Below, one piece after another: positions 524 to 32,308 of a DNA stretch of 32,308 nt; the stretch's first letter is position 1, and every line of letters starts with the position of its first letter. Origin of the DNA: Clostridia bacterium. Lineage in GTDB: Bacteria > Bacillota > Clostridia > Oscillospirales > CAG-272. The DNA is taken from NCBI GenBank assembly GCA_017961575.1, contig JAGCXA010000030.1:1-32308 (forward strand). Direction: 5' to 3'. Under the pieces are notes generated by a model. It did not search any database, was not told where the DNA came from, and saw nothing but the letters and a program-made list of their open reading frames with translations. Both the position numbers and the translations under genes were made by a program.

Positions 524-721
524 AGAGGGTGGGATTCGACGTCCCCGCAAGCGGGGACTACCCCCGGCTCTCGCCTGAATAAGAGAAACGGGCGGCTCGA
601 TCGGATGGCGAGCGCCTTAGAGTTTCCGCGCCTCCGGCGCGGAAACTCGGTGGGTTCGAAGCGGCGCTTCGTCTCCGTCAAACAGGGCGGGCACCCCCTC
701 ACGAGGGTGCCCGCCCTGTTT
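524..721 (-). mobile_element. tRNA-Ser 3'-end module (structured repeat of unknown kind)
   Basis: This segment lies between tRNA-Ser and a 16-nt exact copy of part of its 3' end (524-539 equals 727-742). In plus-strand order it holds: the 3'-end copy; hairpin H1 (541-558, GTCCCCGC arms); TACC; CGGCTCTCGCC (565-575); 24 variable nt; a 22-nt core (600-621, containing GGATGGCGAGCGCCTTAGA); hairpin H2 (619-647, loop CTCCG); a copy of the tRNA T-arm in the opposite orientation to the tRNA (650-660, GTGGGTTCGAA); and a 17-bp terminator-like hairpin touching the tRNA. The same order at the same spacing is found beside tRNA-Gln (29895-30094). It contains no plausible ORF and no transposase. The mobile-element class is an inference; it could instead be a structured non-coding RNA. 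Confidence 0.6.
680..721 (-). terminator. Strong hairpin terminating tRNA-Ser
   Basis: A perfect 17-bp stem (AAACAGGGCGGGCACCC and its complement) with an 8-nt loop starts at the last base of the tRNA CCA. The stem ends in TTT on either strand, so it may act in both directions. Confidence 0.75.
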
Positions 722-809
722 GGCGGAGAGGGTGGGATTCGAACCCACGTGGGCTTGCGCCCAAACTGATTTCGAGTCAGCCCCGTTATGACCGCTTCGA
801 TACCTCTCC
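721..809 (-). tRNA. tRNA-Ser (anticodon CGA)
   Basis: Type II tRNA of 89 nt on the minus strand. The acceptor stem GGAGAGG/CCTCTCC pairs perfectly, the discriminator is G and the 3' CCA is encoded. The anticodon loop is CTCGAAA, so the anticodon is CGA and it reads UCG. The long variable arm TTTGGGCGCAAGCCCA and the T-loop TTCGAAT are clear. It decodes a serine codon that is common in a GC-rich genome. Confidence 0.97.
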
Positions 810-29691: not shown

Positions 29692-29894
29692 GCGCGGGAC
29701 GGTATTTTTGGCTGGAGTAGCTGGATTCGTGACCAAGGGCGACAGGTCGCCCCTGAAAACGCTTTCACTTTCGTCCCCGTTTATGACGATGAAAAAGCGG
29801 AAGCACAGTTTTCGCACGAACGGCTTTTCGTTTTCGCTGGTCCGGGAAAGCGTACCCAGCCAAAGAGGGGCACGGCTTGTGCCGCGCCCCTCTT
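29692..29894 (-). mobile_element. tRNA-Gln distal module (unit 1)
   Basis: The distal of two tandem modules behind tRNA-Gln. It opens with 38 nt (29692-29729) that repeat 30078-30115 with one mismatch: half of a terminator stem (GCGCGGGACGGTATTTTT) plus the tRNA 3' end in antisense. Further on, the stretch 29795-29862 resembles tRNA-Gln itself in the opposite orientation to the real gene: AAGCGGAAGCACAG near its start, GCTGGTCCG (29836-29844) and TACCCAGCCA (29853-29862) at its end. A hairpin with AAAGAGGGGC arms (29862-29895) closes it. It lacks the 22-nt core found in unit 2 and in the tRNA-Ser module, but it keeps the same plan. No ORF is convincing. Confidence 0.55.
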
Positions 29895-30094
29895 TGGCTG
29901 GGGTAGCTGGATTCGGACGCGCGTCTTTCGTCGCGCTACCGGCGGCTCTCGCCCCACGGAGACGAATGAACAGCCACATCGGATGGCGAGCGCCTTAGAC
30001 TTTCCAACGCTCCGCGTCGGAAACTCGGCTGGTCCGAATTACACTTTCTCAATCAAAAATACCGTCCCGCGCGCGAGGCGCGGGACGGTATTTT
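29895..30094 (-). mobile_element. tRNA-Gln proximal module (unit 2), homologous to the tRNA-Ser module
   Basis: It begins with 23 nt identical to the tRNA-Gln 3' end (29895-29917 equals 30095-30117), then H1 hairpin (29919-29936), TACC, CGGCTCTCGCC (29943-29953), 24 variable nt, the 22-nt core (29978-29999), H2 hairpin (30000-30024, loop CTCCG), and a copy of the tRNA T-arm GCTGGTCCGAAT in the opposite orientation (30028-30039). It closes with an 18-bp hairpin. From H1 to the T-arm copy it aligns with 541-660 without a single gap; by my count 71 of 96 positions in 565-660 agree. Between the two modules the hairpin arms differ in sequence but still pair, with one mismatch each in the Gln copies. 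It could be a mobile element, a structured RNA, or both. Confidence 0.65.
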
Positions 30095-30095
30095 T
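30055..30095 (-). terminator. Strong hairpin terminating tRNA-Gln
   Basis: A perfect 18-bp stem, arms AAAAATACCGTCCCGCGC and complement, loop of 5 nt. In the tRNA direction the hairpin ends in TTTTT. It begins at the CCA end of the tRNA. Confidence 0.85.
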
Positions 30096-30169
30096 GGCTG
30101 GGGTAGCTGGATTCGGACCAGCGAGTGCAGGAGTCAAAGTCCTGTGCCTTACCGCTTGGCTATACCCCA
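30095..30169 (-). tRNA. tRNA-Gln (anticodon TTG)
   Basis: 75 nt on the minus strand including an encoded CCA. The acceptor TGGGGTA/TACCCCA has the U1-A72 end typical of bacterial tRNA-Gln, the anticodon loop is ACTTTGA (anticodon TTG), and the T-arm is GCTGG TTCGAAT-type with CCAGC. Both glutamine codons can be read by this wobble anticodon. Confidence 0.97.
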
Positions 30170-32207: not shown

Positions 32208-32292
32208 GGGGGAATTCCCGAGTGGCCAAAGGGGGCAGACTGTAAATCTGTTGTCTCTGACTTCGGTGGTCCGAATCCACCTTCCCCCACCA
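32208..32292 (+). tRNA. tRNA-Tyr (anticodon GTA)
   Basis: 85 nt, type II with a long variable arm as in bacterial tRNA-Tyr. The acceptor GGGGGAA/TTCCCCC pairs fully, the discriminator is A, and CCA is encoded. The anticodon GTA is at 32242-32244 in the loop CTGTAAA. The last 16 bases of the window after it begin a G-rich stretch like the first arm of the tRNA-Ser terminator. Confidence 0.97.
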
Positions 32293-32308
32293 ACAAGGGC
32301 GGGCGCCA

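Follow-up and report, generated by a model that had tools for sequence, protein, structure and literature searches.

The two structured modules beside tRNA-Ser and tRNA-Gln in the window, the whole 32,308-nucleotide stretch of Clostridia bacterium DNA analysed here, are the tip of a larger family of units of about 190 nt, which follow tRNA genes and the tmRNA gene, share a covarying core, and carry antisense and sense copies matched to the tRNA that they follow. The units are real and, within the open-access literature searched, in which no description of such a trailer family was found, undescribed; their mechanism is one that we infer. Tentatively, with a confidence that falls a little short of even, they are read here as a family of structured trailer RNAs that would continue the tRNA or tmRNA transcript and act in cis as a switch or attenuator of their own tRNA gene, with the loop of one core hairpin (C) putatively docking a shared factor.

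Anatomy of the units in the window

An earlier note on this DNA had aligned positions 541-660 with 29919-30038, without gaps, beside different tRNAs. The alignment was borne out, with 79 of 120 positions identical, and the neighbours were confirmed as tRNA-Ser(CGA) and tRNA-Gln(TTG). The next best ungapped match of the first copy within the window reaches 55/120 on the same strand and 53/120 on the other, and a 20-nt core pattern (at most 3 mismatches) occurs twice in the window against none in 100 dinucleotide shuffles. The hairpins H1 and H2 of that note are likewise present and pair as it claimed, both being parts of a larger fold on the tRNA-sense strand; left out of its anatomy were the long hairpin C, the closing stem A, and a third, diverged unit spanning about 29709-29861. 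The minus strand, on which both tRNAs lie, is the one that suits the units best; their parts, from the tRNA downstream, are the following.

721..809, minus strand: host tRNA-Ser(CGA)
680..720, minus strand: hairpin T of the Ser unit, adjoining the tRNA 3' end, without a U-tract (longest T run 3)
672..677, minus strand: anti-acceptor segment of the Ser unit, CGGAGA, complementary to the tRNA acceptor 3' strand
650..660, minus strand: antisense T strand of the Ser unit, 11 nt, against the host T-stem 5' strand and T-loop
620..648, minus strand: core hairpin B of the Ser unit (H2 of the earlier note)
566..616, minus strand: core hairpin C of the Ser unit, with the conserved loop start ATCCGAT
558..565, minus strand: copy of the T-stem 5' strand plus TAG in the Ser unit, closing stem A with the antisense strand
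540..557, minus strand: hairpin D of the Ser unit (H1 of the earlier note), at the split in the T-loop copy
524..539, minus strand: sense copy of the Ser unit, 16 nt, covering the host T-loop, T-stem 3' strand and part of the acceptor strand
30095..30169, minus strand: host tRNA-Gln(TTG)
30055..30094, minus strand: hairpin T behind tRNA-Gln, ending in T5, terminator-like by the fold-plus-U-tract rule
30027..30038, minus strand: antisense T strand of the Gln unit, 12 nt
29998..30026, minus strand: hairpin B of the Gln unit
29944..29994, minus strand: hairpin C of the Gln unit
29936..29943, minus strand: copy of the T-stem 5' strand plus TAG in the Gln unit
29918..29935, minus strand: hairpin D of the Gln unit
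29895..29917, minus strand: sense copy of the tRNA-Gln 3' end, including CCA
29862..29894, minus strand: second hairpin T of the Gln array, 3' of the copied 3' end
29709..29861, minus strand: second, diverged unit of the Gln array, with a different core, missed by covariance model R2
29853-29861, 29836-29844 and 29710-29729, minus strand: anti-acceptor, antisense T and 3'-end copy of the diverged Gln unit

The host-specific ends that had been claimed for both copies were also recovered, with antisense runs of 11 nt for Ser and 12 nt for Gln and sense 3' copies of 16 and 21 nt, respectively, out of 26 nt compared without the CCA.

At about 425-490 of the window lies another dispersed repeat, GTCGCATAGTCGTCCGTGGCGTGCAGCACAGCC...CTCCTTGCTTTGGGCGACACC, with a short perfect hairpin behind it in most cases; it stands after several units or inside hairpin D, and is also present at loci L010, L021, L028, L263, L265 and L267. 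In the last stretch of the window, 32208-32308, the contig stops just after tRNA-Tyr, and another contig of the same genome (C18, locus L014) has at its end the 3' end of a tRNA-Tyr and a unit bearing a Tyr-type antisense strand, which makes it probable that the assembly broke at these repeats.

Family, core structure and distribution

In the source genome (G000), the core pattern, again with at most 3 mismatches, was found at five places against none for a reversed control. Two of them are those of the window; two more follow tRNA-Ser(GGA) and the tmRNA gene, respectively, and the fifth, close to a contig end, has no tRNA called beside it. Covariance model R1, built from these five sites, gave 27 matches in G000 at E ≤ 1e-3 and was positive in 4 of 79 relatives, G000 included. 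Model R2, built from 77 matches, was positive in 8 of the 69 genomes of the genus, namely G000 and seven other species, with 31 matches in G000, 19 in G021, 17 in G098, 16 each in G031 and G090, 14 in G044, 10 in G099, and two weak ones in G025, these counts including a few opposite-strand overlaps of another match (C27 in G000, C103 in G090). Many covariance-model matches had been predicted from the two copies, and those obtained lie mostly just 3' of tRNAs or at contig ends; the spread is confined to part of this one genus and is not Clostridia-wide.

The distribution is narrow, at 8 of 69 species of one genus. In a sample of 295 genomes at the level of the order, only G000 was positive (0 of the 294 others), the search being a coarser one with 13 candidates scored per genome; it recovered 13 of the 31 G000 matches, so weak copies would be missed. 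Judged by a 1163-aa protein of the window, the carriers tested are the nearest relatives in the search with that protein (G098 and G099 being outside it), with identities of 85-88% over the longest piece in G021, G031, G044 and G090 and 79-83% in shorter pieces, and with a single short piece of 67% identity in G025. An exact-pattern scan of GTDB species genomes returned 7 contigs only, five of them from three MAGs, and a wide spread of the family was rejected on this ground. One of the pattern contigs (L139) had no R1 match at E ≤ 5e-4, and another, from a Rhodobacteraceae MAG (L142), is probably a chance match. A phage origin was likewise set aside, the exact core pattern having no matches in viral contigs.

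The covariation foreseen by the earlier note for its hairpins extends over the whole core. In alignment A2 (77 copies from four genomes, 76 distinct rows), 94.8% of cells are standard pairs, 26 of the 27 core pairs have changed on both sides, and the covariation score is 0.580, whereas shuffled versions score 0.134 and slid ones no more than 0.098. The held-out alignment A3, from G090, G098 and G099, gave 92.6% paired cells, 26 of 27 pairs, and a score of 0.530 against 0.137 shuffled; both alignments were fitted to the model and lean towards its structure, and row L075 of A2 (plus strand), probably a spurious reverse match, was kept, as were several such rows in A3. On the tRNA-sense strand, G-U pairs outnumber A-C pairs by 71 to 27 in A2 and by 57 to 21 in the held-out set, counts in which related copies are not independent; the excess favours the tRNA strand as the folded molecule, and it equally fits single-stranded DNA hairpins or their recognition. 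While the stem of hairpin C varies, its loop (ATCCGAT, then pyrimidine-rich) is largely kept.

A same-strand tRNA or tmRNA lies within 900 nt upstream of 53 of the 77 A2 copies, and within 80 nt in 42 of these; first units stand on the tRNA strand, 52-74 nt past the tRNA end. Of the 24 copies without a tRNA in reach, 18 begin at most 400 nt from the contig start in reading direction and six do not. In the held-out G090, G098 and G099, a host was assigned for 34 of 48 matches, 32 of them first units. The hosts comprise 24 kinds of tRNA as well as the tmRNA, and in G000 alone 16 of the 42 tRNA genes plus the tmRNA gene. In tandem arrays, a tRNA 3' end is followed by hairpin T, the antisense, the core and hairpin D, and then by another tRNA 3' end. 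The copied CCA is retained in internal units of certain arrays, and last units are often without acceptor copy and CCA. Many tRNAs of the carrier genomes are without units and some units have decayed, which indicates that the units are not needed everywhere. For 23 of the 47 units that have a counterpart at the same tRNA elsewhere, the most similar core of another species stands behind that same host (shuffles expect 2.2, with a maximum of 9), a pattern that suggests part vertical descent and part turnover.

Matching to the host tRNA and properties of the trailers

The flanks track the neighbouring tRNA, as had been predicted, across 74 first units compared with permuted hosts. The antisense run against the T arm averages 9.2 nt versus 5.9 nt for permuted hosts (sd 0.15, top permutation 6.6), the anti-acceptor run 5.07 versus 3.83 (sd 0.12), and the 3' copy 12.9 versus 6.2 (sd 0.24). 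In the same units, the spacer that faces the T-stem 3' strand is not complementary to it beyond the permuted level (2.50 versus 2.46). The antisense is thus directed at the T-stem 5' strand and T-loop, and in some units at the acceptor as well, with the T-stem 3' strand skipped, and the unmatched spacer argues for selective pairing as opposed to a simple inverted duplicate. The antisense run is merely 5-7 nt in 11 of 42 first units.

Where T stems differ between species, the unit fits its own tRNA better in 16 of 20 cases, with 2 ties and 2 worse. The better fits comprise all 12 units at Ala(cgc), Ala(ggc), Ser(gct) and Ser(tga), one of two at Lys(ttt), and three of six at Met, a set that combines two different Met tRNAs. 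The T arm of tRNA-Ala(ggc), for example, varies by species (ACGAG versus AGGGG; G000 L026, G031 L128, G021 L015), and the antisense of the first G000 unit fits the G000 arm, its 3' copy fitting the other form. A preference of the antisense for the host over the unit's own copy was rejected as not robust, since the strict form of the test gave 14:0 with 21 ties and the form allowing one-base shifts 9:2, or 4:3 in the held-out set; antisense-stem tests requiring the TAG core end omitted 7 of 42 and 9 of 32 first units. In a comparison of trailers, the antisense signal is 7.29 versus 5.36 in the four carriers (98 trailers), little in G025 (4.71 versus 4.46, sd 0.14, 24 trailers), and at chance level in G036 and G097 (4.62 versus 4.58, 40 trailers). 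By eye, G025, G036 and G097 have T-loop-split 3'-half copies around a different core, GGAGCGGTACAGAG...GACCGCGAGCGACCAAG (L177, L242, L256, L257), and at Thr(ggt) of G036 the whole tRNA 3' half is copied (L236).

Matching that follows the tRNA could in principle arise as a by-product of template switching, in which a quasi-palindrome of inverted and direct copies of the tRNA end is repeatedly corrected against the tRNA during replication and the match would require no function. Such correction would account for the tracking itself and for hairpins T, B and D, which change in sequence and mostly stay paired. However, it should copy the spacer opposite the T-stem 3' strand too, and this is unmatched; nor does it explain the loop sequence of hairpin C, largely kept across units with different stems, or one common core at many unrelated tRNA genes. 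This explanation is considered highly improbable.

Hairpin T adjoins the tRNA end and is near-perfect in most units. By a simple fold-plus-U-tract rule, 22 of 74 trailers with units are terminator-like versus 42 of 63 without (P = 1.8e-5), the latter being last-of-operon trailers from the four carriers, G025, G036 and G097. A stricter rule left 18 of the 74 unit trailers terminator-like, and T runs of at least 6 occur in 3/74 unit trailers versus 25/63 unit-less ones. The lower frequency of terminator-like unit trailers suggests readthrough into the unit.

In free-energy folds, thermodynamic predictions that take no account of base modification, proteins or the order of folding during transcription, the host T-stem 5' strand pairs mainly with the antisense strand in 47 of 71 transcripts and with its native partner in 13. 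With swapped hosts it pairs with the antisense in 20 of 213 and with the native partner in 114 of 213. A transcript ending before the antisense strand forms the native T stem in 50 of 71 cases, the same as the tRNA body alone, and since that body has its native T stem in no more than this number, the folding is rough. Folded singly, six of seven transcripts have the T arm captured, the exception being the tRNA-Ser(CGA) of the window; two of the six, Ser(GGA) and Arg(acg), fold with the copied T arm formed and with post-core sequence paired to the tRNA body, amounting to a predicted 3'-half exchange.

Proposed mechanism and relation to known systems

The RNA proposed here would begin with a tRNA with encoded CCA, followed by the near-perfect hairpin T, mostly without a long U-tract. 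An acceptor-complementary stretch (in part of the units) and a spacer not complementary to the T-stem 3' strand would lead to the antisense strand, typically 10-12 nt, against the host's own T-stem 5' strand and T-loop. The covarying core with hairpins B and C would then be enclosed by stem A, formed of the antisense strand and the copy of the T-stem 5' strand, and variable hairpin D would precede the copy of the T-loop and of part or all of the tRNA 3' half. Since the tRNA's own strand and its copy are both possible partners of the antisense strand, two folds would compete in the precursor: in one, the tRNA would be free and the unit closed on itself, and in the other the antisense would capture the T arm of the tRNA. 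The loop of hairpin C may serve as the docking site of the shared factor.

The main contender to this scheme is a small integrative element that would insert at the T-loop of tRNA and tmRNA genes and bring a gene-restoring 3' half, leaving the displaced 3' half downstream; arrays would then be repeated insertions or tandem duplications. With the islands and phages of tRNA and tmRNA genes (phage Ms6, for instance), the units share their hosts, a boundary in the T-loop, and direct copies of the tRNA 3' half that flank them. T-loop attachment and displaced 3' fragments have been reported (PMC1762012, PMC4383910). Many units indeed lie between two copies of the stretch from T-loop to 3' end (the fragment at both ends of the unit being partial in many), tandem arrays are formed, tRNA and tmRNA genes are both used, and a unit may be present in one species with none seen at the same tRNA elsewhere (Tyr in G021, Pro(tgg) in G000). 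Units flanking gene cassettes would also agree with it, as would the T-loop-split copies seen by eye around other cores elsewhere in the genus. On the other hand, no integrase gene lies inside the units, which at about 190 nt are too small for one, and they are without any recombinase gene. The Y1 (IS200-type) transposase PF01797 is missing in six of the seven species with at least 10 matches, being found only in G090 among these main carriers (genomes 81-97% complete). The units further differ from islands and phages in being geneless, in having the T-loop copy split by a hairpin, and in their host-specific antisense and covarying core. Integration alone leaves unexplained an antisense strand that follows each tRNA, its selective reach and its upkeep, as well as the compensatory changes that keep the structure at orthologous loci. 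We regard the integrative origin as a serious possibility but one that is on balance improbable as the explanation of the units, and a mobile origin with a later role would make the two readings compatible.

The earlier note had offered two alternatives, an element targeting tRNA 3' halves and an RNA that pairs with its host tRNA. The evidence leans towards the latter, on account of the G-U excess over A-C, the scarcity of U-tract terminators, the skipped T-stem 3' strand, and the co-evolution with the tRNA.

The cis-acting trailer has its closest anatomical parallel in the RtT (RttR, RF00391) repeats of the E. coli tyrT trailer, where four RtT matches were found. RtT units likewise stand in tandem directly 3' of a tRNA, close with a copied tRNA 3' end that includes CCA, and run in the order antisense T3/acceptor, antisense T-stem 5', sense T-stem 5' plus T-loop, insert, and sense 3' half plus CCA. 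By reading, without a score, the antisense and sense T-arm strands come in the same order in RtT and in the present units. The antisense T-stem 5' strand of RtT is clear in the tyrT-tyrV copy and the Rfam consensus, and has one base changed in the other three copies. Hairpins B and C of the present units are replaced in RtT by a 4-nt loop, and RtT was examined at tRNA-Tyr of E. coli K-12 only, whereas the units have host-specific ends at 24 kinds of tRNA and the tmRNA. The RF00391 model had no match at E ≤ 1 in 10 unit loci, was positive in 0 of 40 genomes, and among 14 controls recognised E. coli alone; model R2 in turn found nothing at E. coli tyrT. With no model match joining the two, the units are RtT-like in anatomy and are not RtT.

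Bosl and Kersten reportedly linked RtT, released during tRNA processing, to the stringent response, and the role of the E. coli tyrT/RtT repeats is, to our knowledge, unexplained. An open-access literature search on tyrT/RtT gave no title on the repeats among the matches listed, and PMC2658671 names rtT RNA once. By analogy with RttR, the units could be a source of trans-acting small RNA, a piece between two CCA ends that tRNA processing would free. The order of parts is as in RtT, the annotated E. coli RttR ends at the copied CCA, and internal units of some arrays keep that CCA; yet acceptor copy and CCA are often missing from last units, and a host-specific antisense would be superfluous for a shared role in trans. 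This reading is judged very unlikely. The same frequent lack of a copied CCA end in last units disfavours its use as a spare part for damaged tRNAs.

Other known systems are more distant. The units may resemble REP/RAYT (IS200/IS605-type) repeats in the GTAG before the GC-rich hairpin D and as short dispersed palindromes, and differ from them in their position 3' of tRNAs with host-matched ends; transposition of the IS200/RAYT kind was rejected, as PF01797 is missing from most carriers. T-box and other tRNA-sensing leaders are regulatory RNAs that read a specific tRNA, as the units would. The units, in contrast, lie downstream of a tRNA and not upstream of an mRNA, and their pairing partner would be the T arm instead of anticodon and CCA end. 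A scan of 10 unit loci gave no T-box match at E ≤ 1. At the gathering score, Rfam 15 recognised only tRNAs in the window, and in the 10 unit loci at E ≤ 1 the core had no match at that score, the sub-threshold matches falling on tRNAs and hairpin T; a known Rfam family for the unit was rejected accordingly.

The usual view of a tRNA gene is that a terminator or a short trailer closes it. In the carriers, a covarying, host-matched trailer that stays in register as the tRNA changes stands behind many tRNA genes and the tmRNA gene; if the cis-acting reading is right, tRNA supply would be individually controllable in cis. The unit family also provides a comparative set for the E. coli tyrT/RtT repeats, and may represent an RNA family that is portable between tRNAs through a re-derived short antisense strand. 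A bolder and rather unlikely extension is a gene-by-gene riboregulatory layer for tRNA and tmRNA supply, many tRNA genes of the clade having their own antisense trap and spare 3' half and one factor reading hairpin C throughout. The readthrough transcript would then switch between functional tRNA and a captured, sometimes 3'-half-exchanged dead form, and units of the RtT kind would be a general class.

Several minor observations concern sequences around the units. A box, GGTNACTTTT, stands behind some last 3' copies (L012, L042 and L099, for example), and a loose pattern for it, run without a control, lies within 330 nt of 23 of 77 cores. Cassettes directly after a tRNA CCA or a copied CCA were seen at G031:C152 (L263), G090:C40 (L265), G000:C24 (L069), G021:C51 (L110), G044:C15 (L090) and G031:C97 (L136). 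Their left ends are similar, a TGAAAGAAACCTGATTTGTCTACC hairpin followed by palindromes, and two have the right end TACGTTTGTACGCT, the cargo of these two being a 2-hydroxyacid dehydrogenase and a NUDIX protein. At G021:C10 (L267), two equal-scoring Ser(gct)-type units 2.1 kb apart flank DUF3990 and DUF3791 genes.
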